This document shows positions 23,237 through 57,958 of a stretch of DNA of 58,695 bases, piece by piece. This stretch comes from a virus: positions 1 to 58,695 of IMG/VR virus record IMGVR_UViG_3300034175_000127; one strand, written 5' to 3'. The position numbers and the translations under genes are program-made. The first letter of the stretch is position 1. Every line of letters begins with the position of its first letter. The notes beneath the pieces were generated by a model. That model searched no databases. It had not been told where the DNA came from and saw only the letters and a program-made list of their open reading frames with translations.

Positions 23237-23382
23237 GGTTTGTTTTCTCGCCAGTAGCGGCGATTTAAATAAAGCGTTTGGCGCTCGCGTATCTGGCCTT
23301 TGAGCCATGCGCGAGCGCCAAACATTTGAATGTTAGACCAGGCTCGTTCTATCTCTGCGAGCCAATTAGCCTTTGGTGCCAA
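23233..23382 (-). CDS. Small protein downstream of PRTRC C (start uncertain)
   Basis: The reading frame is supported by its stop, which overlaps the next start, and by a protein-like, aromatic and basic sequence (ERAWSNIQMFGARAWLKGQI). No clear ATG with a ribosome site exists. A TTG at 23382, inside the end of PRTRC C, would give 49 residues, and an internal ATG gives 30. An open frame further upstream would overlap PRTRC C more. Function unknown. Confidence 0.4.
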   Translation of the reverse strand: MAPKANWLAEIERAWSNIQMFGARAWLKGQIRERQTLYLNRRYWRENKP

Positions 23383-23569
23383 CGGCGGCTTTGAAGGTGA
23401 CGATTTGTTTTCCGTCCTTTTCTTCAACGTTGATGCTGGCATTGGTAAGTTGGGGAAAATGCGAGGCGTGATGTTTTTTCACAGCTTCGTTGGTCATGGA
23501 CTTGTCCGGCAGTTCGAGGCGTTGTCCATTGAACATGAACACGCGGGGCAGGGTAGTTTTTTCGGCCAT
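23366..23569 (-). CDS. PRTRC system protein C, ubiquitin-like
   Basis: 67 residues. The pattern RVFMFNGQRLELPDKSM, then HASHFPQLTNASI, then IVTFKAAVGTKG matches my knowledge of PRTRC protein C, including the final GTKG and the conserved F/Y-PxL-x-xA core. The family is classed among prokaryotic ubiquitin-like beta-grasp proteins, usually near E1-like ThiF and E2-like genes. Here the ATG overlaps the ParB stop, while ThiF and PRTRC B lie about 11 kb away on the same strand. Whether its C-terminal Gly is conjugated to anything is not known. Confidence 0.78.
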   Translation of the reverse strand: MAEKTTLPRVFMFNGQRLELPDKSMTNEAVKKHHASHFPQLTNASINVEEKDGKQIVTFKAAVGTKG

Positions 23570-25476
23570 CAGTCAGCTTCCTCCTCGGAATCATCTACAT
23601 CGGTGGGCACGGCGCGCCCTTCCAGTTCAGCGATCATGTTTTCGGGTTCGATTCCCGCGCCTTCACACGCCACGTGAAAGCGTCGATACAGCGCACAGAC
23701 AGTCGCTACATTCAAATCGTGTTCGTCCAACCAGTCTGCTTCAGCGCCTGGGATGGTCGCTGTCATATCGGGGCTGGAGCTTTCGATAGGCGGCGCGGGT
23801 TTGGGCGTAGCTTTCGGCGCCGGCTTGAGGTTCTGGCCTTCACTGCTGGCGGTCGCAAAGCCAACGCCCTGGCTTACTGGTGGCGTGCTGGCCACACCGC
23901 CAACGCCCGCTTTTTGCGCGGGCGATTCGTGCGCGCGGCTTTCAAGCTGTTTGTCGTTCTCGCTCTTTTCCGGTGCTTCGTTGGCAGCATCACCGGCGCC
24001 GTCTTGGGCTACTGGCGTAGCGGCGCTTGTCCGCATTTGTAGCACGAGGAATTCGCCCTGATCGGTTAGTTTGAAATGGTGGCGCCCGTCTTTTTCTTCA
24101 TCAGTCACAAAGCGCGGTTGCAGAGCTACAAGCATCGCCGCGACGTTCGCAGGGCTGACATCGATTTCTTCGGCACTGCGCGCGATAGTCGAATTAGGAT
24201 GAAAATCGAGAGTCTTGAGAATTCGCTTTTGCTCGAAGCTGAGTTCGATGGTGCCGCTGAGAGGTGCAGCCATTACAGAGGTTTCATTTTGACTGTTTGC
24301 GCGTGCCTTTTGATCTGCAAGCAATTCAGTGCCTCGCAACGACAAAAGCAAACTTTCGCCTTGATCGGTCAGCGCAAACGTATTGTCTTCAACAACAACT
24401 AACCCTCTGGAACCCAACTCCGCTACAATGAGGCTGACTTTACCTTCCGGAATCTGTGTTTCTTCGGAGATGCTGGCCACGTCTGAATCTTGGTCAGCAC
24501 CAATAGCAACTAACACCTTTGATTCAAGAACAAGGAGTTCTTCGTCGACACTTTGCGAAGCTGCTTCCAATTGTGTCTGGGCTGGCTCTGCTTTCGGGAT
24601 TTTGGGCAGCTTTTTGACGTTGAAATCGAGGTGAATTGTCTCGGTCATGCCATCCGGTAAAACAACCAGATATTTTGGATGGACTTCTTTGACGGTCCCG
24701 AAAATCTTCGCATCCGGTGCGAGCTTCGACTTCCATTCAATGCGATCATCTGACTCGAAGACCGAAACCAGCGGCGCGCCTTTGCGTTCAACGCCACCGG
24801 CTGGCTCTTCGATTAGCTTCGGTTGCTCGCCGGCGGATTTCGCTTTTTCGGCAGCGTCCAAGCTTTCACGGACGGGCGCAACTTCCGCATCAAGACGGCG
24901 TGATGACCACTGCTCATCAGCGCATCTCTGGCCCAAAACCTCAACGGCGGTTTTGTCTTCGATGATGCTGCACAGAGTTTTAGCGTGGGTTTCAGTAATT
25001 TGGCCGCGCGTGAGCAGATCCAGCACGCTTGCGGGCAAGGCCAACAATCGCATCCGGTTGGAGACGACGGGCGCTGAAACCTTGTATTCCTCGGCAACTT
25101 GAACATTCGTTTTCCCGAAATGCTCAATCAAGTTGCGATAGCCGATGGCGATTTCCACGACGTTGAAAGAAACGTGTTCCGTGTCAGATTTGAGGGCGAG
25201 CGTCGCCATTTGCAAATCCGAATAGTCGCCAACTTCGGCATCGCAAAACTCCCATTGGAGATGTCTGAAAGCACGCACACGGCGCTCGCCATTCAGAATC
25301 TGGTGGGTGCCATCGCCGTTTGGAGTGGGACGCGCCACGATTCTATGGAGCAATCCATCATTAGCGATGCTGTCGGCCAGGGAGTCGATGTCATCGAACA
25401 ACTGGCGGGGCTGAAAAGGGTTGGGCAGAATGTCTGCAACGCGCAACCGCACTATTTTGGTGGGTGTCTGGCTCAT
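23569..25476 (-). CDS. ParB-family protein with two winged-helix domains (PRTRC-associated)
   Basis: 635 residues. Residues 8-100 are a ParB nuclease-like/CTP-binding domain with ILNGERRVRAF, followed by a helix-turn-helix near residues 125-160. The middle is acidic linker. Two related winged-helix units follow (around residues 320-385 and 415-475), each ending LTDQGE(S/F)L. The C-terminus includes VATVCALYRRFHVACEGAGI. Its stop overlaps the PRTRC C start, the arrangement seen in PRTRC cassettes, so it is the cassette ParB by context. A second ParB is at 30495-31583. It carries an in-frame copy of the palindromic repeat (24547-24577). Confidence 0.75.
   Translation of the reverse strand: MSQTPTKIVRLRVADILPNPFQPRQLFDDIDSLADSIANDGLLHRIVARPTPNGDGTHQILNGERRVRAFRHLQWEFCDAEVGDYSDLQMATLALKSDTEHVSFNVVEIAIGYRNLIEHFGKTNVQVAEEYKVSAPVVSNRMRLLALPASVLDLLTRGQITETHAKTLCSIIEDKTAVEVLGQRCADEQWSSRRLDAEVAPVRESLDAAEKAKSAGEQPKLIEEPAGGVERKGAPLVSVFESDDRIEWKSKLAPDAKIFGTVKEVHPKYLVVLPDGMTETIHLDFNVKKLPKIPKAEPAQTQLEAASQSVDEELLVLESKVLVAIGADQDSDVASISEETQIPEGKVSLIVAELGSRGLVVVEDNTFALTDQGESLLLSLRGTELLADQKARANSQNETSVMAAPLSGTIELSFEQKRILKTLDFHPNSTIARSAEEIDVSPANVAAMLVALQPRFVTDEEKDGRHHFKLTDQGEFLVLQMRTSAATPVAQDGAGDAANEAPEKSENDKQLESRAHESPAQKAGVGGVASTPPVSQGVGFATASSEGQNLKPAPKATPKPAPPIESSSPDMTATIPGAEADWLDEHDLNVATVCALYRRFHVACEGAGIEPENMIAELEGRAVPTDVDDSEEEAD
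24547..24577. repeat. Degenerate palindromic repeat inside the ParB gene
   Basis: 31 bases with outer arms GACAC/GTGTC and core GCGAAGCTGCTTC, related to the intergenic palindromes. On the coding (-) strand it reads EAASQS, the same peptide as the copy in the portal gene. The 18-base run GAAGCAGCTTCGCAAAGT is identical in both genes. Confidence 0.7.
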
Positions 25477-26789
25477 TCGGCCTCCTCGACTTCAGCGGCA
25501 GCGGTCGGGAGCGGCCCCCAGGAAAGAAGTTTGAAATTCACTTCGGTCATAACTTTGAACGCGAGCGCGGGCGTCAAATCGTTGAATGACTCGATACCAT
25601 CATGTCCATGCGCTTTGAGGAAGCGACTCACCACATCGATGCGTTCCGCGCGAAACTGGGCCGCCATGGAAAGTCCTTGCTGTTCACACGCAATAATCAG
25701 CTTTTGAACTGCACTTGAGATTCTGCGTTTGGGCGGCGTGGCCTCGCCTGCTGGCGCTGATTCGACTGGGGCCGGTTCGGAAGCGATTTCGGGTTCAAGG
25801 ACAACCTCTGCTTCAGGAATGGTCTCGGCATCGGTGGTCTCACCGTCAACCGGAGCGGTTTCGCTGACTTCACCCTCGGCCACATCGTCTTCTGTGGCTT
25901 CTTCCACGCCTTCATCCATCGCTTCGGCGTAGTCTTTTGTCCGCTCAGCTAAAACGCGTTCGACTTCGGCGCGCATTTCAGGCCGGACAGCTGCGCCACC
26001 ATCCCAACGCTTGATGCATCCTTCGAGAAACTCGGTAGGGCAATCAGCTGGAGTGCGACCTGCACATGCACCTTTTTTAAACGTCAGGGAATTTTCAGTA
26101 GATGCAGTGGCCGTAGATGGAGCTGGGGACGTTTTGGGAGTCGTCACTTTTTGGCGACCAGACGGTGGCTCAGGTGCCGAAGCGACAACAGCGTTACCAG
26201 CCACATCGGTTTCAGTTTCTAACTCGTCAGGTGTGTAATAAGTTTGGCTAAAGACATCTGGGGCAAATCGTCTCATGCCCCGTGAAATGACGCGAGCGAA
26301 GAGCATATCGCTAGGTGTCCGTTGCCAATTGGCTTTGGGTTTTCCATAACCGTTGCTGGTCAGGCCCGCTGCTGTTGCCTCTTCTATTGTCATTCCAAGT
26401 GTTCCGACGCTTTGACCTTCCTCGAAAAATTCAAGTTGGCAATCAAAGTCATTGGAAACAATGATTCTGAAGTCGTATTTCTTCGACTTTTTGATAGCAG
26501 CGGCCATGATGCCCGCGCCGATGGATGGTTTGCCTTCAATGACATGAATGCCTGTCATTGAGGCTATCGGACTTATGCCGATTTCTTGGCCGAAAAGCAC
26601 TTTGACGATAGCCTGTGATTCACTTTTTGCGTCTGAAAAATAGCCACTTTTGGCCAAATGAGAGGCTAAAGTAATAATGTCCAAGCCGGGATACAGCGGT
26701 TGTATAGAAGGCTGGCCTAACTGTGGCATGACGAGCATATCGCCAGCGGATACACGGGCCAATTGTTGATTCTGGCTCATATTATTCAA
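25473..26789 (-). CDS. RecT-like single-strand annealing protein
   Basis: 438 residues. Residues 30-200 show the RecT-type pattern: SESQAIVKVLFGQEIGISPI, HVIEGKPSIGAGIMAAAIKK, CQLEFFEEGQSVGT, then SDMLFARVISRGMRRFAPDVF and YTPDELE. The middle is a Thr/Ser- and Glu-rich linker with no clear domain. The C-terminal 80 residues are helical and unassigned. RecT proteins anneal complementary single strands next to a 5'-3' exonuclease. The preceding gene encodes such a nuclease candidate and overlaps it by eight bases. The start is either of two ATGs three codons apart. Confidence 0.72.
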   Translation of the reverse strand: MNNMSQNQQLARVSAGDMLVMPQLGQPSIQPLYPGLDIITLASHLAKSGYFSDAKSESQAIVKVLFGQEIGISPIASMTGIHVIEGKPSIGAGIMAAAIKKSKKYDFRIIVSNDFDCQLEFFEEGQSVGTLGMTIEEATAAGLTSNGYGKPKANWQRTPSDMLFARVISRGMRRFAPDVFSQTYYTPDELETETDVAGNAVVASAPEPPSGRQKVTTPKTSPAPSTATASTENSLTFKKGACAGRTPADCPTEFLEGCIKRWDGGAAVRPEMRAEVERVLAERTKDYAEAMDEGVEEATEDDVAEGEVSETAPVDGETTDAETIPEAEVVLEPEIASEPAPVESAPAGEATPPKRRISSAVQKLIIACEQQGLSMAAQFRAERIDVVSRFLKAHGHDGIESFNDLTPALAFKVMTEVNFKLLSWGPLPTAAAEVEEAE

Positions 26790-27945
26790 GTTCCTCCAGG
26801 GGTTTTACGAGAGCGAGGCTTTGCGATACGGATAAGGTGACTGCGCCGACTGCACGCAAATCTTCCATCATCGCATTGGCGGCAGCGGTTTTTTCGCCTC
26901 TTGGCGCCGCACTTTTCACTGTTTCGAGCAACCTCGTTTTGTTGATGTCGCACACGGCAAACATCTGATCTTCTGAAAGTTGGGTCTGCATTACCTTTGC
27001 GGATTCTGGTGTAAGCGCAATGGTTTCGCGGTTCATCGGGCGCAGGTCGAGCACTTTGCCTGTGTCAGTGAGAATTGGGCCGCCACCAAAAACGAATTGC
27101 TTTATGGCCATCTTCACATCTTCCACGCGTTTGCCCAGTGCTTGGGCTACGAAATACAATTCGGCAGCATTGTCGGGCGTGATTTCAAACGATTCACCGC
27201 TTTCCTTTGCCATGACAAATAGGCCAGCCTGATTGTGAAGTTGGGGGCACCTCGAAACGGGACAGTAGTGACACTGCTCGCCAATGCGTAGTACACCTCT
27301 GAGCGCTTCACTTCCGGCGATCACCAAGGTTTCTTGCCAAGCCTGAAGCTGGTCGAGTGTGAATGTCTCGCTGTCTATAACTCCTTCGCGAAGCCAAAGT
27401 ATGGAAACAATCACTCGGTCTATCGCGGCTTCTGAGGTAGAAGCAAAACGTTCATACGCCAACATCGCGTAGGTTTTAAGCTGTGCGCCGTAGTCGCCTT
27501 CACGCCAGCCTGATTTCCAGTCGCCAACGCGGATCGAGCCATCGCCCGGCAGCGATATTATGTCCGCGTGCCCCGTGATTTCTAGGTCGATTGCTGTGCC
27601 GTCGCCGACAGGAACATCTAAAACGGTGCAAAGTTCGACTTCCGCCTCAGGTTCTGGAAAAAATTGTTGGCATTTCTGCCAGAGGTTCGATGCTGCCCAG
27701 CTGAGCTTGATTAGTTCGGTCTTATCAACATCGTGAGCAGCGGCCACGACATCCACACTGGCGGGCATCCCGTATATTATGCGCTCGCAGCAATCGTGAA
27801 CTGCGGTTCCCAAACGGGCTGGGGCGGACGTGGATTCAAAGGTGGGAAGCATCATTGAACCCGGACATTTGGTGACACGCGGCGTTGAACTGGCACGCAA
27901 TGTCAGGTGCGGTGGTGAAAAAATTTGGTGTGGTTGGAGCGGCAT
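26782..27945 (-). CDS. RecB/Cas4-like PD-(D/E)XK exonuclease with predicted Fe-S cluster
   Basis: 387 residues. CPGS (C27) and GTAVH (H50) are followed by GHADII (D128), GDWKSG (D142, K144) and QLKTYA (Q155, Y159), the full RecB-type nuclease set. Three cysteines in QCHYCPVSRC (C225, C228, C233) together with C27 match the four-cysteine Fe-S cluster of AddB/Cas4-type nucleases (DUF2800-like). It pairs with the RecT-like gene immediately downstream, forming a recombination module comparable in role to lambda Exo and Beta. Confidence 0.85.
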   Translation of the reverse strand: MPLQPHQIFSPPHLTLRASSTPRVTKCPGSMMLPTFESTSAPARLGTAVHDCCERIIYGMPASVDVVAAAHDVDKTELIKLSWAASNLWQKCQQFFPEPEAEVELCTVLDVPVGDGTAIDLEITGHADIISLPGDGSIRVGDWKSGWREGDYGAQLKTYAMLAYERFASTSEAAIDRVIVSILWLREGVIDSETFTLDQLQAWQETLVIAGSEALRGVLRIGEQCHYCPVSRCPQLHNQAGLFVMAKESGESFEITPDNAAELYFVAQALGKRVEDVKMAIKQFVFGGGPILTDTGKVLDLRPMNRETIALTPESAKVMQTQLSEDQMFAVCDINKTRLLETVKSAAPRGEKTAAANAMMEDLRAVGAVTLSVSQSLALVKPLEELE

Positions 27946-27951
27946 AAGTCC

Positions 27952-28353
27952 TCAGTTTTTTGACAAAACTACTTTGTCTAGAGGGCTTTTTGGCACCTGG
28001 TTGTAATACCGTTGGTGCAGTCTGGTTAGTTCGTTTTGGACAATGGAAAGCTGATTCTGAGCTTCAATGCGAAGGGTGTCAGCTTGCACAATTCCGGTTG
28101 CTAATTGGTGATTCAATCCGAGAAGTTCATTAGTTGATTTGTTGGCTTCCGCAATGCAGCGGTCTTTATCTTTCAATTCCGCCTTTTGCTTACGAATGTC
28201 GGCACACAAGTCCGTGATTTTCTCGGTCAATCTATCGTTGTCTTCGCACTTGTCGAGGATGATTTCTTCCTGCTGATGCACTTTGCAAAGCAGGTAATAC
28301 GCCATACAGCCAAGTGCGGACGCTATTATGAGGGTGAGGATCTGATAGATCAT
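27952..28353 (-). CDS. Membrane-anchored coiled-coil protein
   Basis: 133 residues from the ATG at 28353; an upstream TTG lacks a ribosome site. An N-terminal transmembrane helix (about residues 3-22, ILTLIIASALGCMAYYLL) is followed by a long coiled coil (residues 28-115). The topology resembles spanin-type or Rz-like proteins, but it lies far from the lysis genes. Function unknown. Confidence 0.6.
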   Translation of the reverse strand: MIYQILTLIIASALGCMAYYLLCKVHQQEEIILDKCEDNDRLTEKITDLCADIRKQKAELKDKDRCIAEANKSTNELLGLNHQLATGIVQADTLRIEAQNQLSIVQNELTRLHQRYYNQVPKSPLDKVVLSKN

Positions 28354-28398
28354 CTTGTCAAAACTCTCCTTGGCAGCCAAGGCCGCCGGTTGTTGTGG

Positions 28399-28614
28399 TT
28401 ATTGACGCGGAATCATTCTGATTTGCAGGTCGCAGGCTGGTAAATTGCCGCCGTGCTCTGCTTTGAGCAGCTTGATTTGGCTTTCTAAGTCGCGTCCGAT
28501 GCGTTCCAGCAAAGCCGTGGTTGCGAGTCGTTTGCCCTCTATGCTCTGGGCTGCGTCGACTATCGCGGTTTTTAGGCTTTCGTCGATGTTTGCTGCCACA
28601 ATTTCTCTTCCCAT
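28399..28614 (-). CDS. Hypothetical small protein, first gene of the long minus-strand operon
   Basis: 71 residues, with a strong GGGAGG site before the ATG at 28614. Sequence MGREIVAANIDESLKTAIVD, helical. It is the first gene after the divergent control region and is probably made early; it could be a regulator of the Cro type by position, but no DNA-binding motif is clear. Confidence 0.6.
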   Translation of the reverse strand: MGREIVAANIDESLKTAIVDAAQSIEGKRLATTALLERIGRDLESQIKLLKAEHGGNLPACDLQIRMIPRQ

Positions 28615-28829
28615 TTTCCCTCCCGTGTAGGTTTATAATCAGTCAAGAAAAATAATTGATTGATTAATTGTGTCAAATCATACGCCCGTAATTGATTATC
28701 GTCAAGTGCTTCTTGACTGATTTTCGACTTTTTTTTCTTAATTGATTATGCTTTGTGGAAATCAATTGAATAATTGATTGATTCTCACAGGGAAAAACGC
28801 GATGAATTATGAAAAAGGGGGAAAAACTG
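28615..28829. promoter_or_regulatory. Divergent control region of the repressor and the minus-strand operon
   Basis: AT-rich stretch without a gene. It holds a full copy of TTATAATCAGTCAAG at 28633-28647, a GTCAAG/CTTGAC inverted pair at 28701-28717, and at least five AATTGAT or ATCAATT words, including an inverted pair at about 28761-28778. A TATAAA on the - strand (28632-28637) could be a -10 for the leftward operon, but its -35 is weak. Expected to be the immunity switch of the element. The rightward gene has AAGGGGG eight bases before its ATG. Confidence 0.7.
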
Positions 28830-29561
28830 ATGGCCAGAGTCACATACACCTGCAAAGTCTGCGGCCATCAGTGGCACCCGCGTAAAGCGGCATTGCCAGA
28901 GGTTTGCCCAAACCGCAAATGCCACTCGGCCTATTGGCAAGAAGGGCCACAACGCGCCTCGCGCGCTGAATCGCTCGCCAAAGCGAAGGCTAAACGTGAA
29001 TTGGAGCAAAGCGTTCTGGCAAAACGAGTCCCTGTCTCGCAGAAAGTGCGCGAAGCGACCTACTACAAATTAGGTCTTATGCACCCCAAAGATGACGGTT
29101 TAATCACCATTGGCAAGACCAACGCGAACGAGTGGTATGACGCAGGCACCGAGCCGGAAGAGGAATATCCGAAAGCGGGAATGCTCGACTTGCTCTCGTT
29201 CAATAAAGAAACCGACGTCATGTTCGTGGTCAACGAACAGGAGAATTCGGGCATCTGTTTGACCGGAGATGGTATTTACCCCGGCGACATTATCCATTTC
29301 CGGAAGGGCATCCAACCCAATAACGGTGACATCGTGCTGGCAGAAGGCTTCGATATCGAGGGGCACTGGTTTGTTACTGCCAAGCACTATCATGTGCGTG
29401 GTCTGCGCTGGAACGGCCTTCCGATCGTGGAGCTCCGGCCCTCAAACCCACGGTGCAAAGTCATCCGCGTTTTTCCACAAAACATTCTGGAAATTAGCGT
29501 CGAAATCTCTCGGACACACCGCAATATCCACAAGCGCAACAGCAGAGGACGGAATAAATGA
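28830..29561 (+). CDS. Zinc-ribbon/LexA-like repressor (S24 peptidase fold)
   Basis: 243 residues from the ATG at 28830, chosen because AGGGGG lies eight bases upstream; an ATG at 28809 would add seven residues. Numbering from 28809: Cys15, Cys18, Cys33 and Cys38 form an N-terminal zinc ribbon instead of the usual helix-turn-helix. A predicted linker follows. The C-terminal half is S24-like: a candidate Ala112-Gly113 cleavage site (DAGTEPEEE), Ser147, exactly 34 residues after Gly113 as in LexA, a GIYPGDIIHF strand, and Lys192 in FVTAKHY as candidate general base. The usual GDSM motif is not intact (ENSG). It heads an operon with parAB. Likely represses its own region and late genes. Confidence 0.72.
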   Translation: MARVTYTCKVCGHQWHPRKAALPEVCPNRKCHSAYWQEGPQRASRAESLAKAKAKRELEQSVLAKRVPVSQKVREATYYKLGLMHPKDDGLITIGKTNANEWYDAGTEPEEEYPKAGMLDLLSFNKETDVMFVVNEQENSGICLTGDGIYPGDIIHFRKGIQPNNGDIVLAEGFDIEGHWFVTAKHYHVRGLRWNGLPIVELRPSNPRCKVIRVFPQNILEISVEISRTHRNIHKRNSRGRNK

Positions 29562-29890
29562 ACAACAAGTTAAAGATTTTCTTGGTCGGCTCACTGATTT
29601 TTGCAAGCGGTTTTGCTGTGGCTCAAACACCAGCCGCGCGCAGTTGGGCAACCACGGTCGCAACGGCGGCCTTTAGTGGCGAAAAGGGCGATGACGAAAA
29701 GTTAGCCAGGGCGTATCAAAGCGCTGCTGGCAATGCGGACCTCACAAAGATGGCGGCGCAACTCGCCTTTAGTTGGGAAGAAAACGCGAAGCCAACTGAA
29801 ACCAGTCTGGCTGTCTTGCAGGTCATGCAAAACCAAAAAATCATTGAGCAAAACGCTCAAATTATCAAGTTGCTTTCCCGCAAGAAATAA
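29558..29890 (+). CDS. Small exported protein
   Basis: 110 residues. The N-terminus is a clear signal peptide (positive NNKLK, hydrophobic core IFLVGSLIFASGFAV, cleavage after AVA or AVAQ). The mature part is helical, with no cysteines. Its ATG overlaps the repressor stop (ATGA). It is unusual to find an exported protein between a repressor and ParA; possible roles include a lysogenic conversion or exclusion factor, but nothing in the sequence proves this. Confidence 0.7.
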   Translation: MNNKLKIFLVGSLIFASGFAVAQTPAARSWATTVATAAFSGEKGDDEKLARAYQSAAGNADLTKMAAQLAFSWEENAKPTETSLAVLQVMQNQKIIEQNAQIIKLLSRKK

Positions 29891-29891
29891 G

Positions 29892-30482
29892 ATGATCATC
29901 ACCATTTACTCAGGCAAAGGCGGCGTCGGCAAATCAACGACAACAGCCACACTCGCCCACATCTGGCGCGCGAAAAATCCGATTGTTATCGACATGGACG
30001 AACAAAAAGCAACTGCCGTGTTTGCGGAGTCGCTTGCAGGTATCAGTCGCCACGATGTCGAATCATCAGACTTTTCGCAATTCGTAGCGATCCTTGACCC
30101 GCGCCAACTCGTAATCATCGACTCGCCGCCATTGTGGTCCTTTGCCAGCGAAGCCATTCGCATAGCTGACCTCGTTGTTATCCCTTGCGTCACCGAGCTT
30201 TTACCCTTTCGCGCTACGCTTGCGACTCGCACGAACGTAGGAGGAAAAGGGCGCATTTTGCTCACTCGCTACAACTCATTCGACGCTGAAGCGAACGAAG
30301 TCCGCGCGGAGGTTAATTCGGAGCTCATGGGGAGCGTTTTTAAGAGCGTCATACCAGGCAGCCGCGCCGTGCGCGCCGCAACATTGTTGGGCCAGTGCGT
30401 CACCGAATTTGAGCCAGAAAGTAAAGCGGCAATCGCTTACTTTTCATTGGCCGAAGAAATTGAAGATTATTTGAAGTTTTAA
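29892..30482 (+). CDS. parA: ParA-type partition ATPase
   Basis: 196 residues from the ATG at 29892. The Walker A motif is SGKGGVGKSTT (deviant type, K9 and K14), followed by VIDMDEQ (Walker A') and IIDSPP (Walker B). The short length, with no N-terminal DNA-binding domain, is typical of type Ib ParA. Together with ParB downstream (12-base gap, AGAGGAG ribosome site) it should segregate the plasmid prophage. The operon starts at the repressor gene, so partition may be co-regulated with immunity. Confidence 0.92.
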   Translation: MIITIYSGKGGVGKSTTTATLAHIWRAKNPIVIDMDEQKATAVFAESLAGISRHDVESSDFSQFVAILDPRQLVIIDSPPLWSFASEAIRIADLVVIPCVTELLPFRATLATRTNVGGKGRILLTRYNSFDAEANEVRAEVNSELMGSVFKSVIPGSRAVRAATLLGQCVTEFEPESKAAIAYFSLAEEIEDYLKF

Positions 30483-30494
30483 GAGGAGCATCCA

Positions 30495-31583
30495 ATGGCT
30501 GGAGTTTTAGACCGAGCAAAAAACTCGCTCGAAGGCGTGAAAATCGCGCCCAAATCGGGCGAGATTATCTACGATAACAACGTGGGAAAAGTCAGCATCG
30601 ACGCTGTTTTTCCGATGGGGCAAGACAAATGGGGCACGATGGACACGGTTTCGCGTTCACAGCCTCGCCAGAATTTCAATGAGAAAGAAATGGCGAGTCT
30701 GGCCGAGAGTCTTAGAGAACATGGCCAGCAACAGCCTATCGTGGTGCGAAGAGCGCCCCACGTTCGCGGCGCAGATCGAGTCGCCGAATATGGCATTATC
30801 AACGGCGAGCGCCGTTGGCGGGCACTCAAAAGAATCGGCGCTACGGAAATTCTTGTGCGTGTCGTGAAAGCGGACACCCGTAGCGCTTATCGTCTGGCTG
30901 TTATCAACGATATCCACAATGTCAGCCACAACTCGCTGGAGCGAGGGCAATCGCTGATTGAATGCGAAGAGGATATGCGCGAGGAATTAACAGAGTTTTT
31001 GGCCAAGCATCTGCCGCTGGCTCTGGAACAGCCACTTTCGCAGGCTGGATATGAACGGCTGCAAAAAGTCGAGCACCTCACGCCGTTGTGGATGCGAAAG
31101 GTGTTTGAGCGTGCACTTAAAACGAAACGGCAGCCAAAGGTTATTGATGAAGATGTTGCAGCGACCGTGGGTATCACCACGAAGCGCATGCAGGATCTAA
31201 CGAAACTCACAACGCTCGAGACAGAATTCAAAACCGCACTGGAAGAAGATCAAATCAACACGCGCCACGCAGGCGCACTTTTGCGGTTACCAGACAAGAA
31301 AGCTCGCAAGAAGCTCTATAAAATGATTTTGGATGATGGCTTATCAGGTGTCGATGCCGAGCAACGCGCCAAGGATATGCTTGAGCCGATTCAGAAAATC
31401 GGCGGGACTTGGAAAATCAAAGCCGCTGATCCGATGGTTCCGATGCGCGCTGCACTTTCCAGTGTGGAAGAGGCGGCCAAGGTTCTGCGCGAAACGGATG
31501 CACCAGAAAACCGCGATGAGCTGCGGCAAATGAGCGCGCAAATGCTCGAACTTCTGGCCGAAATCGAAAGCCGTTTAGCCTGA
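30495..31583 (+). CDS. parB: ParB-type partition protein
   Basis: 362 residues. The N-terminal ParB domain shows SRSQPRQNFNEKEMASLAES, QQQPIVVRR and GIINGERRWRALKRIGA, followed by a helical region (residues 150-300). The C-terminus is helical and probably dimerises. It is transcribed with ParA and converges on rep, overlapping its stop. The cognate parS site was not identified. This is the second ParB-family protein in the window; the other is at 23569-25476. Confidence 0.9.
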   Translation: MAGVLDRAKNSLEGVKIAPKSGEIIYDNNVGKVSIDAVFPMGQDKWGTMDTVSRSQPRQNFNEKEMASLAESLREHGQQQPIVVRRAPHVRGADRVAEYGIINGERRWRALKRIGATEILVRVVKADTRSAYRLAVINDIHNVSHNSLERGQSLIECEEDMREELTEFLAKHLPLALEQPLSQAGYERLQKVEHLTPLWMRKVFERALKTKRQPKVIDEDVAATVGITTKRMQDLTKLTTLETEFKTALEEDQINTRHAGALLRLPDKKARKKLYKMILDDGLSGVDAEQRAKDMLEPIQKIGGTWKIKAADPMVPMRAALSSVEEAAKVLRETDAPENRDELRQMSAQMLELLAEIESRLA

Positions 31584-32765
31584 TTCCAACTGCTTTTGAT
31601 AGAGGTCAGCGTGTTGTTGAGCTACGATTTCCCACAACACAAGCGCCATTGGGGAGTCGGGGCGTTCTAACCTGTCCCAAAACACAGGTTCGACTTCGGC
31701 GCGCGCTAATTGGCGCAAACGCTCTTGTTCGGCCTCTGGCAGTGATTCCCAGACCGCAAAGGCTTCGCGAGGATAGATTGCGTCGTCAGGTTGCGAAGGC
31801 TTCAAAACAGGCGGTTTTGGCGCTTTAGCAACCTGTTTTGAAGTCGCGGGCGTGTCGGTAGGTGGAGCGTCAATGCGTAAGGCAACATCTCCAAACTTAA
31901 AAATCGCGATTTCACCGTCATTTCCCTTGCGGTAATCGACACTTGAGAGATAGCCACGCGAGATCAATTCTTCAATGCCAGAGACCAATTTCTCGCGGAT
32001 TTTGGACGGATAAGCGTAAGGTGCCATTCCCAGCCGGTCGCGTAGTTTCATCACACCGATTTCAAACTCACGGCGCGGTGGCTTGTGAGCATTACGCATC
32101 ATGTCCAGAAAACGAAACAGGCGGCGCGCGGTAGGAATATCCAGCGAGAGCATGAAATCCAAAGCAAGTGAGCGAACATTGCCCGCTAAAAACGACTCGT
32201 GCAGCGTTTCACTCCAACGAAACCACGAAAGGGGCAGTGTATTTTGGCCTTTGCGCCCAGGTGGCTCCGCAACAATACCAAAGGCTTCGAGCAAACCAAA
32301 TGAAACAGCTTCGTAAGTGGCTTTAGCTCGGGCGTTCCAAAATGAGTGGCGTGCACTTATTGTCACGCTGGCGAGTCGTTTAAAACAGTCTTCCAGCGTG
32401 CGATAGGTGCGCGCATCATGGCTCCAACCCATGCGTTTGAGCACATCGAAGCGCGAAAAAGGCACGAGACGCGGCCATTCACCATGGCGCGCGATTTCGC
32501 GTGTCAGCTGCAAAAGCACCAAATAAAGCAATTCTTCATTGGGCCCAGGCAAGCCTAATTCTGTGTGGCCATTGACTTCCCACGAGGCTTTCACGATTTT
32601 GCCGTTGGGGAGTTGGCGATCATATTCGTATTGAATCAGTGATTGCCCCGCTCGTGATGCCGCTTGCAAAAGCGCGAAGGGGTTTCCTGCGAGATTCATT
32701 TCATCGCGTCCCGAATGTTCTTCTCCGATTAAAACCAATGTGCTTTGCGACTTTGAGTGGAGCAT
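31575..32765 (-). CDS. RepA/RPA-type replication initiator
   Basis: 396 residues from the ATG at 32765; an ATG at 32699 is an alternative and neither has a strong ribosome site. The open frame extends upstream to 33134 but that part is only iteron DNA. The core has LLYLVLLQLTREIARHGEWP, RFDVLKRMGWSHDARTYRTL, EDCFKRLASVTI and RKGQNTLPLSWFRWSETL, followed by LEAFGI upstream and a winged-helix-like C-terminal half (SKIREKLVSGIEELISRGYL). This matches plasmid initiators of the replication protein A class. It lies next to iterons to which it probably binds. Its stop overlaps that of parB. Confidence 0.8.
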   Translation of the reverse strand: MLHSKSQSTLVLIGEEHSGRDEMNLAGNPFALLQAASRAGQSLIQYEYDRQLPNGKIVKASWEVNGHTELGLPGPNEELLYLVLLQLTREIARHGEWPRLVPFSRFDVLKRMGWSHDARTYRTLEDCFKRLASVTISARHSFWNARAKATYEAVSFGLLEAFGIVAEPPGRKGQNTLPLSWFRWSETLHESFLAGNVRSLALDFMLSLDIPTARRLFRFLDMMRNAHKPPRREFEIGVMKLRDRLGMAPYAYPSKIREKLVSGIEELISRGYLSSVDYRKGNDGEIAIFKFGDVALRIDAPPTDTPATSKQVAKAPKPPVLKPSQPDDAIYPREAFAVWESLPEAEQERLRQLARAEVEPVFWDRLERPDSPMALVLWEIVAQQHADLYQKQLESG

Positions 32766-32866
32766 GATTTTGGATTTTAAATTTAAAAATGTCTCTTTTC
32801 TTTTTCTTTCTAAAGAATACATTCTTTCTAAGGCTTTCCCCTTGGCATTTTGAGCGTGCTTTCTTC

Positions 32867-33075
32867 CCCCAAATACCGCGTTTCCTTCCTCTACATACCG
32901 CGTTTTGGTGGCTTTTTTCTTCCCCCAGATACCGCGTTTCCTTCCCCTGCATACCGCTTTTCCCCAAAAAGACTTCCCCCAGATACCGCGTTTCCATGTT
33001 CTAAACGCGGTATCTGGGGGAAATCCACGCTCAAACAGACTCCCTCCTTTTAAAAGAAACGCGGTATCTGGGGGA
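32867..33075. repeat. Iteron array, probable replication origin
   Basis: Seven copies of an 18-base iteron (consensus CCCCCAGATACCGCGTTT). Five lie on the + strand at 32867-32884, 32889-32906, 32923-32940, 32945-32962 and 32977-32994. Two are inverted at 33004-33021 and 33058-33075. The copies at 32889 and 32945 are degenerate. Spacing includes two 22-base steps, two helical turns. An AT-rich stretch (32770-32830) lies toward rep. This is the layout of theta-replicating iteron plasmids. No DnaA box was recognised. Confidence 0.85.
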
Positions 33076-33087
33076 AGAAATAGCCTC

Positions 33088-33558
33088 TCAGGGTGTTTTT
33101 TCTTTGCGTGGTCGTCCCCGTCCCCTCTTTTCACCCTGTGGCTTGGTTAGGTCGGTGCCGGTTTTAATCCGCGGGTATTGTTTGCGAGGTGCTGGATCAA
33201 AGCGTCGGCCGCCATTGTGGACTTCTTCGAGTGCTTCACAATAATTCCGGATTGCTGCATCGAAAAATGAGGTTTGGTCGAGAAAAAGCGGCGACCCACT
33301 CAGCGCAGCAACACAATTATCAATGCGCTGTGCGTTGTCTATGCTGACGTAGATGTTCTTCTGGCCGAGCGTTTCAGGTGGCGCGCCCGCCTTGACGAGC
33401 GAGCCAATAGCCTGCGAAGTGACGGTGCGTGACCGCCTGGGACGCACTTGACCTAACTTTTTGCGCTCGCGATGACGCTCCAGCACATCTTTGTCGTATT
33501 GGCGACGCTGTTCAGGCGTCATATTTTTGAGTGGGATTGGAAGTCGTTTAATTGGCAT
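33088..33558 (-). CDS. AT-hook protein next to the origin
   Basis: 156 residues. The N-terminal half is basic (MPIKRLPIPLKNMTPEQRRQ). The middle KNIYVSIDNAQRIDNCVAAL, then DQTSFFDAAIRNYCEAL, resembles a ribbon-helix-helix or small helical DNA-binding unit. The C-terminus GRGRPRK is a canonical AT-hook. It is transcribed towards the iterons and ends 13 bases before the nearest one. By location it may control copy number or help origin opening; this is inference. Confidence 0.7.
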   Translation of the reverse strand: MPIKRLPIPLKNMTPEQRRQYDKDVLERHRERKKLGQVRPRRSRTVTSQAIGSLVKAGAPPETLGQKNIYVSIDNAQRIDNCVAALSGSPLFLDQTSFFDAAIRNYCEALEEVHNGGRRFDPAPRKQYPRIKTGTDLTKPQGEKRGRGRPRKEKTP

Positions 33559-33559
33559 T

Positions 33560-34546
33560 TTAAATTCCCAGCGGCAAGTGCATCAAATCAACGGCTTTCT
33601 GTTTGTGCACCTCGCCGCGCATATCGTATTTTTGTGTTGTTGAGATTGATTCATGACCCATCAGAGCTTGAATCATCGGAGCATCGGCACCCGCTTCAAA
33701 CAAATGAGTTGCGAAGCTGCGGCGCATATCATGTGGCGAAAAGGCTTTGACGCCAGCCCGCTCGCGGCAACGTTCGAGCGATGTCAAAACCGTCTGGTCG
33801 TTGAGGCGACGCATCTCGATTTTGCCACCTTTGGGAGTTGGCAAAAACAGCGGCCCGGCATCCTCACCACGAAGCGCAATCCAAGATTCCACCATCGGAC
33901 GCACAAAAGCACTGGTCTGCACCAAACGCTCTTTGTTGCCTTTGCCACTGCGAACCCGAATCGTGCCAGTCTCACGGTCATAGTCCGCCAGATCGAGCGC
34001 CACAACTTCAGAGCGGCGCAGGCCTGCGCCATAAGCGACGATGAGCAGGGCACGATCACGAACGCCGCACGCAGTTGCAGGACAGGCTTTAATCATCGCG
34101 ACCAGCTCACCTTTCGTGAGACTGCGACCGCTCGGCAAAACCGTGCCCTTCACGCTTTTCACGTTCTTGGCGCGCATATAATCGTCGGTGTCTATCTGCT
34201 CCAGATTCCAGGCAGCTTCAAGCACTCCGCGCAGAGCGCACAACATTTTGTTGGCTGTATTTGGCTTGTGACGTCGCGCTAACTCAGATTTAAGCGCAGT
34301 CGTAAGACCCACACGAAGACCAGCCCAGTTGAAATCCATCGCGCCACAACGACCACCCGAAAGCATGAGCGCCATCGTTTCGAGTGCTGCGCCCATTGTG
34401 CGCCGACTAGAATCAGCGGAGAGGCTGGCCAGATAAAGCAAAACGGGATTCTGGTCGGCGCTCCGAGCCGGTGCCCAAATTTGAAAAGATGCTGGCAGCG
34501 ACAGCTGTGACTCGGTGGACGAAGCGGAAACGATGGACGTGCTCAT
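33560..34546 (-). CDS. Tyrosine recombinase (XerC-like)
   Basis: 328 residues from the ATG at 34546. Catalytic residues: R177 (GLRRSE), K202, H272 and R275 (PHDMRRSF), H298 (GHES) and Y307 (KYDM). The N-terminal 130 residues form the core-binding helical domain. No attachment site was found and the element has plasmid replication functions, so a role in resolving multimers or inversion is as likely as integration. It has its own promoter (34554-34582), so its mRNA may start at or next to the start codon. Confidence 0.88.
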   Translation of the reverse strand: MSTSIVSASSTESQLSLPASFQIWAPARSADQNPVLLYLASLSADSSRRTMGAALETMALMLSGGRCGAMDFNWAGLRVGLTTALKSELARRHKPNTANKMLCALRGVLEAAWNLEQIDTDDYMRAKNVKSVKGTVLPSGRSLTKGELVAMIKACPATACGVRDRALLIVAYGAGLRRSEVVALDLADYDRETGTIRVRSGKGNKERLVQTSAFVRPMVESWIALRGEDAGPLFLPTPKGGKIEMRRLNDQTVLTSLERCRERAGVKAFSPHDMRRSFATHLFEAGADAPMIQALMGHESISTTQKYDMRGEVHKQKAVDLMHLPLGI

Positions 34547-34553
34547 GACAATC

Positions 34554-34592
34554 ATTATATGCCTGTAATTGAAATAATGCAAGTATTATTTC
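34554..34592 (-). promoter_or_regulatory. Recombinase promoter with palindromic operator
   Basis: On the - strand, TTGCAT (34577-34582), a 17-base spacer and TATAAT (34554-34559). The -35 lies inside a palindrome at 34571-34592 (arms GAAATAAT and ATTATTTC, six bases between). The predicted transcript start is within a base or two of the ATG at 34546, so the mRNA would be leaderless. The same 27-base sequence is at 40579-40605. Confidence 0.75.
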
Positions 34593-35400
34593 ATTTTTGG
34601 CGAATCATAAGCGGGTTAACGTGCCCGGAGTCGAGATTGATAAAGGCGCCGTGTCTGTCGATTGGACCACGAAACAAACGCCAAAGCAGGTCGAGCGCGA
34701 AAGTCACAACGGTTTGGTTAATGAAGAGATCTTGCTTCTCAAGCGCTTCGGCCAGTGAGCAAGAAGGCGTGTCATCTTCAGGTAGGGCCTCATCGAGGAG
34801 CTCAGGGAAAATATCGAACAAGTGAGGAAGGCGTGGCATCAGTTCCTCTTTGACACTGTGATTTGTCCCACTCTTCAAAGCACGCTTTGAGACTGGGACT
34901 AAACGCTTTTGGGCTTGGAGTTCGCCTAAAATTACTTGGCCGTCACGCGAACGATTTCCCATGTCGAGCCAGTATTTAGAAAGGTAGTTATTCTCCATGC
35001 CCTTGAATATCTCACGCCGTGAAGCTGCTGTATCTGTGCAGGTAATCAAGATGTTGCATGAGTTTCGTCCCTGGAATTTCTCTGGGCGCGCTGTCCAATT
35101 AAGCCCATAAAAGCAGTTCAGGCGATGGATCAGCACAGTAGCTTTGTTCTGGCCGATATCGGAAGGGCTAAAGAGTTGGCGACCGACGTTACTTTCGCTC
35201 ACACGGTCAAAGTCATACGCCGTCACATCGAGACCACTCGGATGACCAATAGCCCGTAAACCACGGTCAATGCGAGCTAACCCAGTCAACATCTGTGAAC
35301 CATTGCCACCACAGCCAATAACAAAAACCGAAATGGATTGGGTCAGCATTGAGGACGCAATTGTATGCGTCTCATTATTAGGGTCAATCGGTTTCGTCAT
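34591..35400 (-). CDS. PRTRC ThiF-family E1-like protein
   Basis: 269 residues. The nucleotide-binding glycine loop is VFVIGCGGNGSQ (residues 25-36). D63/D65 and the segment ESNVGRQLFSPSDIGQNKA give the conserved N71, R74 and K86 of the E1 adenylation site. Near the C-terminus, PSCSLAEALEKQDLFINQ contains the conserved Cys214 of PRTRC ThiF proteins, a candidate thioester residue. By family knowledge it would adenylate the C-terminus of a ubiquitin-like partner, here probably PRTRC C. It overlaps the PRTRC B gene by 17 bases. Confidence 0.85.
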   Translation of the reverse strand: MTKPIDPNNETHTIASSMLTQSISVFVIGCGGNGSQMLTGLARIDRGLRAIGHPSGLDVTAYDFDRVSESNVGRQLFSPSDIGQNKATVLIHRLNCFYGLNWTARPEKFQGRNSCNILITCTDTAASRREIFKGMENNYLSKYWLDMGNRSRDGQVILGELQAQKRLVPVSKRALKSGTNHSVKEELMPRLPHLFDIFPELLDEALPEDDTPSCSLAEALEKQDLFINQTVVTFALDLLWRLFRGPIDRHGAFINLDSGHVNPLMIRQK

Positions 35401-36151
35401 GATTTAAGATGTCCTCCACTGTGACAGGGCTTTCTGCGCCTTGAATTGGTTCTAAGTAGGACCAGGGAAACCTTTCGGCCCCGACCATTTCCCGCCAGAG
35501 CGCATCATGGCTCGAATAATTGAGAAATTTGATCCGGTAATTGGAGTGCGTGTAATGGGTGTCGAAAAATGCGCGTTCCCACTGAGGAATACCACTCGTC
35601 GCCAAATTGTCTGGATAGGGTGCGTTGCCTCGGCACATCGCGCCAGTCGCGTAAAGGTTGAAATAAGGAGCGTAATAGATTGGTGTATCATTTCGAGGAC
35701 GCTCAGAATTTGCTAACGCGAAAACATAAAGGCGCCCTGGTCTTGCCAAAAACAAAAGTGATGGATGACAAACGATCTTGCCGCTCATTTCTTTATTGAA
35801 TTTTGAATTCGAAGTGCTGAAGTAAATTGGGCGTCTTTCCGAGGGAACAAACCACGCCAGCAACCCACCATCACTGCAAAGAACATGATCGGGCGAGACG
35901 GTTCGACGACTGGGTGTAGCTTCCAGTGTGCGAACCAAATTTTCCAGTGCCGGGCGGCTCAATAACTCACCGGCAGTGAGTGCCATTTTTTCCCCGTCAT
36001 TATGAACGCCGTGGACTGTAGCCAGGGCGGTATTGCTTCCTTCATAAATCAGCAGGGCGCGGTTGCATTTCAGCTGTTCGCCCTTAGGCAGAAAGCCCCG
36101 AACGGGCATCAACTCTGGCTCCGTCCTTGTCTGTGTGCGGATGAGTGTCAT
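35384..36151 (-). CDS. PRTRC protein B, E2-like
   Basis: 255 residues. Family features: ALLIYEGSNTALATVHGV, HVLCSDGGLLAWFVPSERRP, LLFLARPGRLYVFALANSER, YYAPYFNLYATGAMCRGN (Cys173) and WERAFFDTHYTHSN. The family is classed as an E2/UBC-like fold (Prok-E2 family D), in which the single conserved Cys is the predicted acceptor of the ubiquitin-like partner and the classical catalytic His is missing. It starts in an ATGA overlap with PRTRC F and is followed by ThiF. Biochemical activity has not, to my knowledge, been shown for this family. Confidence 0.8.
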   Translation of the reverse strand: MTLIRTQTRTEPELMPVRGFLPKGEQLKCNRALLIYEGSNTALATVHGVHNDGEKMALTAGELLSRPALENLVRTLEATPSRRTVSPDHVLCSDGGLLAWFVPSERRPIYFSTSNSKFNKEMSGKIVCHPSLLFLARPGRLYVFALANSERPRNDTPIYYAPYFNLYATGAMCRGNAPYPDNLATSGIPQWERAFFDTHYTHSNYRIKFLNYSSHDALWREMVGAERFPWSYLEPIQGAESPVTVEDILNHDETD

Positions 36152-37275
36152 ATTAAAGTCCTAAATTCTTGGTCATCATCTTCGTTCAATATTTCCATGA
36201 GCGTGGCTTTCGCTTTAAAGGGATCGTTTTCAACGGGATCTGGCCACAATTGCGCCCACCGTTCCCGCGCCGCGACGGAAGGTCGATATTTTTTCCCGAT
36301 GTTCTTTTCCGTATTGATTGCGGTCAGAATCGAGTCGGCAAGGCGAATAAGCCGCGCGCTGCGCCTGAGCCTGTCTATGGCGCTACTGACAGAAGCTGGA
36401 TCTTCGGTGTGGAAAAGGAACGCCATGCAGCTCTCGCAGAAATCCCCCGCTTGCCATGCGTTTTCTGCGTTGTCATCGTAAACCTGAAAAGTGCAGTCGG
36501 TAGATTGCCATGCGACGAGCACAGGTATTACGAAAAAATCCCATTCGCCCAGCTCGGCAAGTTGGCTAAGTTGGTCGGGCCGTTCATTGCCCGTCGGGAG
36601 CAGAGATTTGATTTCAAGTGCTGATGTAAGTGCTTGGTGTTCCCAAGAGACAGGATCGACCTTCTGAAGCGCGCGGCGGACTGCTTTTTCATTCCAGACC
36701 GGATTTATCGCTTTTGCCGGAGCATTCTTTTCAAGTTCCAAGAGAGAGGGATTATAAAACTGGCATTTTTCGCCAGTTTCTTCCGCCTGGGCTATCTCTT
36801 CCATCAAACACTGCTCATACCAATCGCTTCCATCTAGATATTCGTGGGCATCAGTTGTTGACCATCGACCAACAGTAACCCCGAGCGCGTTTAGCAAGCT
36901 GTGAAGAGTTGCATAGCCTGCGCCTCGAGCGCGTTTTTCTAGTTGAGTGATGCACTCACTCACAATGCAGCGAATCGCGCGGCGACGCGCGGTTAGCTCT
37001 ATCATGATCGCGCCTTGGGCCCAGTCATTCTTCGCAGAGTCGGAATAATCGAAATTGAGATGAATCGTGTGCAAATCATGTATATGCAGGTCATCGCGTA
37101 CGAAACGTTCGAGCCCGCTTTGAAGTGTTTCACCGAATGAACCGCGCCAATCGTTATCGATCAAGACACCTTCACGATGAAGGGCGGCACAGATCGAGCG
37201 GGCGCTGTGGTCGGTGGCGATTTTATAACCAGTTGGAATTGTCGAGGGAATCGCGGGAATGCTAAGCGTGTTCAA
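36148..37275 (-). CDS. PRTRC protein F
   Basis: 375 residues from a TTG at 37275 that overlaps the stop of the small gene upstream (TTGA). The frame stays open to 37575, but the added 100 residues are Arg/Thr/Ser-rich and look non-coding. The length fits the roughly 370-residue family. Recognised features are LNTLSIPAIP near the start, HTIHLNFDYSD in the middle and TFQVYDDNAENAWQAGDF towards the end. The function of F in PRTRC systems is unknown. Context with B and ThiF supports the name; sequence recognition alone is moderate. Confidence 0.6.
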   Translation of the reverse strand: MNTLSIPAIPSTIPTGYKIATDHSARSICAALHREGVLIDNDWRGSFGETLQSGLERFVRDDLHIHDLHTIHLNFDYSDSAKNDWAQGAIMIELTARRRAIRCIVSECITQLEKRARGAGYATLHSLLNALGVTVGRWSTTDAHEYLDGSDWYEQCLMEEIAQAEETGEKCQFYNPSLLELEKNAPAKAINPVWNEKAVRRALQKVDPVSWEHQALTSALEIKSLLPTGNERPDQLSQLAELGEWDFFVIPVLVAWQSTDCTFQVYDDNAENAWQAGDFCESCMAFLFHTEDPASVSSAIDRLRRSARLIRLADSILTAINTEKNIGKKYRPSVAARERWAQLWPDPVENDPFKAKATLMEILNEDDDQEFRTLI

Positions 37276-37472
37276 GGGAGAATCGGCAATTGGTGCCAGG
37301 CGGGGCGCAGTGGCTCGCCGCGATTTTTCGCCAGAGCGTCCGACACTTGCATCGCGAGTCGTTCCGCGTCGGGGTTGCTTTGAAATTGTTCCGCGATGAG
37401 TAGTGCTTCGCCTGTCTTTGGTTTGTCTTGCAGGGCTTGGGTTAAGGTTTTGGGTTCGCATGGTGTTTTCAT
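37272..37472 (-). CDS. Small protein upstream of PRTRC F
   Basis: 66 residues (MKTPCEPKTLTQALQDKPKT...). Balanced composition and a stop overlapping the PRTRC F start suggest a real, coupled gene. No clear ribosome site. It could be the leader gene of the F-B-ThiF operon; no family recognised. Confidence 0.55.
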   Translation of the reverse strand: MKTPCEPKTLTQALQDKPKTGEALLIAEQFQSNPDAERLAMQVSDALAKNRGEPLRPAWHQLPILP

Positions 37473-38421: not shown

Positions 38422-39297
38422 TCACGCTATCGGCTCACCCGCCTTGATTATCTTGTCAGCGGCTCCAAAGATACGCCGCGCGCTCTTTTCGGGCACTTGC
38501 TCACCTTTAAACCAGTGCTGAATGTAGCCGCGCGAGTAATCAGCGCCAGCTAAACCGAAACTTTCACAGAGAATATAGGCAACGCTTTCCGCTTCCAATT
38601 CCCTTAAATCGCGCGTGATTGTCTCACCATCAGCAAAGGTTTCGCCTGTTACATGACCTAAAACATGGTGCGCGATTTCATGGAAAAGCGTTTTATGTGG
38701 CAACGCGGCCACCGGATTAACGGCCAAGACCGCGCGCCCGTCTCGCATCCCTGCAAACCCCTGACAATTACCATCAGGATGTGAAAACGGAACTTGTGAA
38801 ATTCCAAGCACGCCAAAGGCTTTTGCTTTGTCCCATGCCAGAGCGGGCGGCTCCGGTGTCAGCATCGGTTCCCCTTCGGTTTGTGAGTAGGTGAACCAGT
38901 GAGGGCGCCAGATAAAGAAGCGGCGCACAACAACGCCAGCCGCGTTTCGTTCCGTCTCGCTCGCCTCTGTTGTTTCCGCGCCTTGCGCGTCACTTTTGGC
39001 CCGCGTTTCGACTGGTTGGCACAATTGCAAACCGCGCTCGCCCTTTTTGATTTTGCGGCCCTTATTGAGCCAGCCCGCAAACGTATCGAGAGGCCCGACC
39101 TCAATTTCGCGCGCGGTGCATTGCATAATCGCGGCGATTTGATTGCCCCGCGAGTAGGGCCAAAACGCGCGGTAGGCGTCGTGCATCAGTCCTGGAACTG
39201 TCACCGCTTCGCGCAGAATTTTTTCCCACTGCATCGGGTTAGGCTTGACTGTTGGCGCCACTTTGGGCGCGGTTACTTCTGTTGTCGTATATCCCAT
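38422..39297 (-). CDS. ArdC-like antirestriction/metallopeptidase protein
   Basis: 291 residues. The N-terminus matches the ArdC single-strand-binding domain (AYRAFWPYSRGNQIAAIM, TFAGWLNKGRKIKKGERG). The C-terminal zincin domain contains HEIAHHVLGH (residues 206-215) and a downstream ELEAESVAY helix with the third ligand candidate. ArdC proteins, first known from plasmids, protect incoming DNA from host restriction. A GGAAG site precedes the ATG. It suits a plasmid-like lifestyle. Confidence 0.85.
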   Translation of the reverse strand: MGYTTTEVTAPKVAPTVKPNPMQWEKILREAVTVPGLMHDAYRAFWPYSRGNQIAAIMQCTAREIEVGPLDTFAGWLNKGRKIKKGERGLQLCQPVETRAKSDAQGAETTEASETERNAAGVVVRRFFIWRPHWFTYSQTEGEPMLTPEPPALAWDKAKAFGVLGISQVPFSHPDGNCQGFAGMRDGRAVLAVNPVAALPHKTLFHEIAHHVLGHVTGETFADGETITRDLRELEAESVAYILCESFGLAGADYSRGYIQHWFKGEQVPEKSARRIFGAADKIIKAGEPIA

Positions 39298-57923: not shown

Positions 57924-57950
57924 GACATTACGAAGCAGCTTCGTAATATC
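57924..57950. repeat. Palindromic repeat element, copy 3
   Basis: Arms GACATTACGAAGC and GCTTCGTAATATC around A, one mismatch. It lies between the chaperone stop and the tape measure ATG and takes up the place where a Shine-Dalgarno site would be expected. Confidence 0.85.
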
Positions 57951-57958
57951 TCCCCATC

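Follow-up and report, generated by a model that had tools for sequence, protein, structure and literature searches.

The PRTRC cassette (TIGR03734-TIGR03742) corresponds to operon class 6d of Iyer, Burroughs and Aravind 2006, where it was predicted to be a bacterial ubiquitin-like pathway (PMC1779556). The PRTRC literature that we found treats the cassette on plasmids or ICEs, and reports no conjugate, thioester or C-ThiF complex for any PRTRC system. Here we analyzed a stretch of viral DNA of 58,695 nucleotides (IMG/VR record IMGVR_UViG_3300034175_000127, hereafter the window), which encodes the PRTRC proteins C, F, B and ThiF in two separate blocks. These genes probably make up an intact, minimal E1-E2-Ubl pathway of the PRTRC/6d class, free of a JAB protease and with a pre-matured modifier, that was split at a later stage.

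When the window was originally described, the cassette was regarded as belonging mainly to plasmids, a view that was not upheld. Searches seeded with ThiF yielded 92 IMG/VR loci with enough flanking sequence, and exactly the order E-C-F-B-A-ThiF was found in 76 of them. A ParB of the PRTRC type was present in 8 of these 92 loci, compared with 46 of 61 genome loci. The same E-C-F-B-A-ThiF order is carried by BgVeeders33 (OK665841), an isolated phage of Burkholderia gladioli and the only one of 50,697 GenBank phages with both B and A. Its cassette proteins are annotated as hypothetical proteins and as a 'dinucleotide-utilizing enzyme', and the literature mentioning this phage makes no mention of ThiF or ubiquitin. 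A BgVeeders33-like terminase was identified in 15 of 32 such IMG/VR records. PHROG scans of three records without this type of terminase showed a terminase and a portal in two, and only phage families of unknown function in the third. Phages, too, carry the cassette widely and hold it by vertical descent. Plasmid pPRO1 was considered as a candidate lacking A and was rejected, as its A gene sits 1.6 kb past the record origin.

The window was originally described as a phage-plasmid, which is supported by the presence of virion genes (portal, tape measure, tail and terminase) together with a plasmid-type replication initiator, iterons and ParAB. The replication initiator (RPA; 31575-33134, minus strand) matches PF10134 with 40.3 bits, and iteron-like repeats of 20-28 nt, both direct and inverted, are found within the 5' part of its gene (32838-33080). 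A ParA-like ATPase (29733-30482, plus strand; AAA_31 and CbiA matches) is accompanied by its partner, a second ParB (30495-31583, plus strand; ParB_N 62.6 bits, HTH_ParB 43.6 bits). The large terminase (44196-45779) was recognized neither by Pfam nor by PHROGs and only through its relative in the contig L078 (E 1e-38), described below. The record is listed as linear, and its tape-measure gene continues beyond both contig ends: a plus-strand open frame of 249 aa at the right end (57947-58693) corresponds to positions 17-144 of the tape-measure profile phrog_13339, and an open ORF at the left end (3-5093) to positions 168-451. The part lacking from the record amounts to about 24 codons, a few tens of bases. 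Because this gene is cut by both contig ends, the genome appears to be circular or circularly permuted, and almost complete.

Several other genes of the window deserve mention. A sigma-factor-like protein (45779-46486; phrog_351, 117 bits) is encoded directly after the terminase gene, and a protein with PAS and response-regulator receiver domains at 12350-13369. The divergently placed gene at 28809-29561 encodes a possible repressor, having an N-terminal Cys4 zinc-ribbon-like motif, a C-terminal part that looks LexA/S24-like and no Pfam match. An ORF at 19552-20151, which clustered with genes following ThiF in phages, was rejected, as it turned out to be a phage gene of scattered occurrence that had three weak matches. 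Pattern scans of IMG/VR for relatives of the window portal, F and B gave none.

C, the predicted ubiquitin-like modifier (23366-23569, minus strand), is a protein of 67 aa ending in AVGTKG immediately before the stop codon. It scores above the cut-offs of both TIGR03738 (52.8 bits against 45.95; NCBIfam) and Prok_Ub (PF14454, 62.9 bits; Pfam), and the terminal K66 and G67 are invariant in 57 aligned rows. The AlphaFold2 model of C (pLDDT 83) has a beta-beta-alpha-beta-beta topology (E-E-H-E-E). A Foldseek search of the PDB with this model returned no significant match, the best small-domain ones being protein L/G-type domains with E of about 0.4-1, and a profile search of the PDB gave weak ribosomal S19 matches only. 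C had been described as a small beta-grasp-like protein ending in TKG; its end, family score and modeled topology agree with this, but a significant structural match was not obtained. As Foldseek found no significant PDB match, the beta-grasp fold of C and the E2 fold of B are proposed from family membership, motif spacing and topology.

The start of C overlaps the stop codon of a gene (23569-25476, minus strand; overlap TGATG) with ParB_N and HTH_ParB domains. Its product scores 105 bits with the general ParB model and only 43.9 bits with PRTRC_parB (TIGR03734; cut-off 278.6). Judged by these scores, the ParB beside C is a general ParB/Noc-like protein from another family than the curated PRTRC ParB. 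A ParB-like gene had been counted as part of the cassette, which holds for its coupling to C but not for its family. Overlapping ORFs preceding ParB encode a RecT-like protein (25473-26789, minus strand), with a weak match to PF03837 (19.3 bits, cut-off 24), and a PD-(D/E)XK exonuclease-like protein of the DUF2800 type (26782-27945, minus strand; PF10926 61.7 bits, PF12705 47.7 bits), the gene of which is the first in the exo-RecT-ParB-C run. The RecT-like gene is likely co-transcribed with ParB and C.

ThiF, the E1-like adenylating enzyme (34591-35400, minus strand), matches Pfam PF00899 and scores 300 bits with TIGR03736 (cut-off 144.75), and its profile aligns to the adenylation domains of Uba1, Uba3, Uba5, ThiF and MoeB in the PDB. 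Residues N71, R74, K86 and Cys214, expected to be kept, are invariant over 182 distinct relatives, as are Q75 and D123. The G29xGGxG34 motif, D63 and D65 are also present and are invariant or nearly so in the same relatives. The E2-like protein B (35384-36151, minus strand) contains the motif P162-x2-N165-x4-G170-x2-C173 followed by H202. Its predicted family membership was confirmed by scores of 155.7 bits with TIGR03737 (cut-off 131.45) and 113 bits, above the cut-off, with Prok-E2_D (PF14460). Cys173, the proposed catalytic residue, is invariant (180 of 180 distinct relatives), and N165, H202 and G170 are conserved in 179, 177 and 170 of these, respectively. The N-x4-G-x2-C spacing is that of classical E2 enzymes. 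Neither a Foldseek search with the AlphaFold2 model of B (pLDDT 86) nor a profile search gave a significant match in the PDB. A downstream His in the class 6d E2-like protein was noted by Iyer et al. (PMC1779556).

ThiF family chemistry, the single terminal glycine of C and the additional matches of ThiF to ThiF/MoeB profiles would also be compatible with a ThiS/MoaD-like sulfur carrier, where C, activated by ThiF, would donate sulfur from a C-terminal thiocarboxylate, and B and F would be accessory. Such a function is unlikely, given the E2-like partner with its invariant Asn and Cys in E2 spacing, a window in which no rhodanese, cysteine desulfurase or cofactor-synthesis gene was recognized, and the separation of class 6d from metabolic operons by Iyer et al. 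(PMC1779556).

F (36148-37275, minus strand) is a divergent alpha-helical protein of 375 aa. Its TTG start at 37275, which coincides with the outer limit of the cassette given originally, overlaps, in the sequence TTGA, the stop codon of a small ORF preceding it, and its own stop overlaps the start of B; the coordinates given originally for C, ThiF and B were confirmed as well. Overlapping genes are thus found in two runs, ParB-C and small ORF-F-B-ThiF. F scores 29.8 bits with TIGR03742, below the cut-off of 58.4, but is matched by our first-round plasmid profile (E 8e-11), and its best pairwise match is F from L078 (E 3e-16). These three values constitute the independent support, since the extended F profile built here, which gives 189 bits, was trained on a set including the window's own F. 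Taken with its position beside B, the similarities point to a weakly but consistently related, divergent PRTRC F. The predicted family match of F is accordingly supported by the plasmid profile and the L078 protein, but uncertain by the curated model.

The small ORF translationally coupled to F (37272-37472, minus strand) encodes a candidate protein of 66 aa ending in HQLPILP. ORFs of 40 aa or more that stop at the F start and end in LP were found in 118 of 158 loci, against about 2 expected. This LP protein has no Pfam or NCBIfam match, is annotated in BgVeeders33 as a 61-aa hypothetical protein and is in some loci fused to C as a tail. The window protein is a candidate member, its similarity to the others being detectable at the end alone.

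Up to E 10, the window gave no match to PRTRC A (TIGR03735), Prok-JAB (PF14464), E or D, in agreement with the prediction that A, D and E are missing. As positive controls, the models for A and E detected these proteins in other phages and plasmids, and Prok-JAB gave matches in 12 of 12 phage records, while the search for D had no control of comparable strength. Because the genome is almost complete, the absence of A, D and E is informative. An ArdC-N/zincin-like protein with an HEIAHH motif and weak matches is encoded upstream of the F-B-ThiF block in the same direction (38422-39297); this metalloprotease-like protein of the ArdC family might in principle substitute for JAB. A second Prok-JAB protein, perhaps a tail-assembly JAB, is encoded elsewhere in the phage records of five other loci (L040, L048, L055, L063 and L075).

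The ParB-C and F-B-ThiF blocks are both on the minus strand and 9.1 kb apart (25476 to 34591), consistent with the predicted split of about 9 kb on one strand inside a phage. Directly downstream of ThiF is the gene for a Xer-type tyrosine recombinase (33560-34582, minus strand; PF00589, 127 bits), which is part of the biology of the element and lies outside the pathway. C was located more than 5 kb from ThiF in none of the 92 full-flank IMG/VR loci and in 2 of the 61 genome loci. In three of the genome loci (L129, L130 and L132), several kilobases part ParB-E-C-F from B-A-ThiF, in L132 with the break within F, which suggests insertions that also part the cassette.

Among the loci gathered, the closest relative of all four window proteins is L078 (CALMES010000077.1), with scores well above those of the next locus (C 69.7 against 53.1 bits, F 71 against 48, B 194 against 133 and ThiF 272 against 248). 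L078 is a phage-like contig of 7.3 kb in which the final part of a ParB-like gene is followed by C, F and B, then by a pair of small ORFs and ThiF, with a terminase 2 kb further on; it contains no E, and no A within its 7.3 kb. In a tree of ThiF and B, the window and L078 form a clade (support 1.0) that falls outside the plasmid groups and also outside a large clade of Burkholderiales phages (58 tips, support 0.91), and the window is by this phylogeny an independent phage lineage of PRTRC. Since all four proteins share L078 as closest relative and the genes are contiguous there, the two halves of the window cassette belong to one system and the split is secondary. That the blocks are unrelated acquisitions sharing a genome by chance, as their distance of 9 kb and a ParB outside the PRTRC family might indicate, is for the same reason extremely improbable.

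L078 has the same reduced gene set, so the reduction appears to be older than the split. This also bears on the idea that the loss of A, D and E together with the split left a decaying, non-working cassette. Three components are missing and the block is broken in two, as would be expected from decay, but the ORFs are all intact with coupled starts, the catalytic residues are all kept, and the reduction predates the split. In addition, A is absent from the fetched locus in several other lineages that keep E-C-(F)-B-ThiF intact. We therefore find decay very unlikely and favor a functional, reduced system.

The form of C was found to be linked to the presence of A. Of the 155 loci with A, 118 have a C frame that extends past the KG by 5-100 residues (median 67), whereas C stops at KG in all 21 loci without A, the window among them (Fisher p 4e-12); L015 was here counted as having A, and for most loci A was called absent from the stretch that had been retrieved. 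Since the loci are related, the p-value makes the link look stronger than it is, but no exception was seen. By parsimony, A must have changed state at least four times on the tree and the tail at least 12 times, and the loci without A form nine maximal clades. C-terminal tails on C that are unrelated between different phage groups occur in L014 (16824-17395) as in many phage loci, in every case together with a JAB gene. The possibility that the tails are one domain was rejected, as they belong to several unrelated families, some of them being the LP protein; BgVeeders33 has both a C tail and a separate LP protein. The simple reading of these sequences is that a tailed C would need JAB to expose its glycine, and that a JAB-free system would need a bare C. 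Other roles of JAB must exist as well, because C has no tail in 37 of the loci with A. As a tentative joint reading, which we regard as possible though short of probable, C-X precursors would, in the way known from ubiquitin fusion genes, be cut behind the glycine by the JAB protein A, while JAB-free systems would make mature C and tag irreversibly. The window lineage would then be a natural minimal irreversible E1-E2-Ubl system, and the LP protein a regular extra component coupled to F.

In the proposed pathway, ThiF (E1) would adenylate the terminal Gly67 of C, which would then be carried on Cys214 of ThiF and passed to Cys173 of B (E2), and B would attach it to target proteins. F is probably a helper or target adaptor, and the LP protein may perhaps also help in target choice. 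No JAB protease would be needed for maturation, because C is made already ending in the reactive glycine. Conjugation had been proposed to be one-way or incomplete; with no recognized deconjugase in the window, conjugation would be one-way unless the tag is removed by a protease of the host or by an unrelated one, but it is probably not incomplete, since C is encoded ending in its terminal glycine. The cassette would have been contiguous at first, and ParB-C would have been separated from F-B-ThiF by a rearrangement later on.

The targets may be the DNA-maintenance proteins of the element (ParB, RecT/exonuclease and Rep), a rather doubtful guess made from gene neighborhood: in the window, C follows the exo-RecT genes and ParB in a coupled run, and on plasmids its usual neighbor is ParB. 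The main rival to this idea is a role in anti-phage defense or superinfection exclusion, with C conjugated to proteins of invading phages or to defense proteins, in the manner of Bil or CBASS Cap2/Cap3. Other bacterial E1-E2-JAB systems are anti-phage (PMC10097602; BilABCD, as summarized in PMC11354881), and a prophage clade keeps the PRTRC cassette widely. Against this, a weak match to the ThiF E1 domain is all that PADLOC detects, with B, C and F unrecognized; the usual plasmid neighbors are ParB and DNA-maintenance genes, and the window cassette sits in a replication/recombination region. We consider defense a somewhat unlikely role.

The window provides a small natural test case for ubiquitin-like tagging systems, having a finished tag and no removal enzyme of its own. 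With C, F, B and ThiF alone kept in this phage, these four may be the minimum with which the system can work. The co-occurrence of C tails with the JAB gene leads to a direct biochemical prediction, and BgVeeders33 offers a genetic system for asking what the pathway does.

Compared with known systems, the window shares with PRTRC/Iyer class 6d a ubiquitin-like C with a conserved C-terminal Gly, an E2-like B, an E1-like ThiF and, less certainly, a helical F, but differs in its lack of JAB (A), E and D, its other ParB family, its split and its phage genome. On these sequence comparisons, the statement that it works like the PRTRC/6d conjugation pathway is better supported than the statement that it is a complete PRTRC cassette. 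BgVeeders33 and the IMG/VR PRTRC phage clade likewise carry PRTRC genes on a phage, but with a contiguous E-C-F-B-A-ThiF, JAB, usually a C tail and a separate position in the tree. L078, which is nearest in all four proteins and likewise combines the lack of E, and of A in its 7.3 kb, with a nearby terminase, differs in having C-F-B-ThiF contiguous, with ThiF separated from B by two small ORFs. The logic of bacterial E1/E2 conjugation, there with a JAB partner, is shared by BilABCD and CBASS Cap2/Cap3, but these have a two-domain BilA or cGAS in the place of the Ubl, fused or differently built E1/E2 proteins and a demonstrated anti-phage function; for Bil and CBASS Cap2 proteins, PADLOC gave in the window only weak partial E1-domain matches, and none for B or C. 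The window cassette is a genuine, though reduced and split, member of an already known class.
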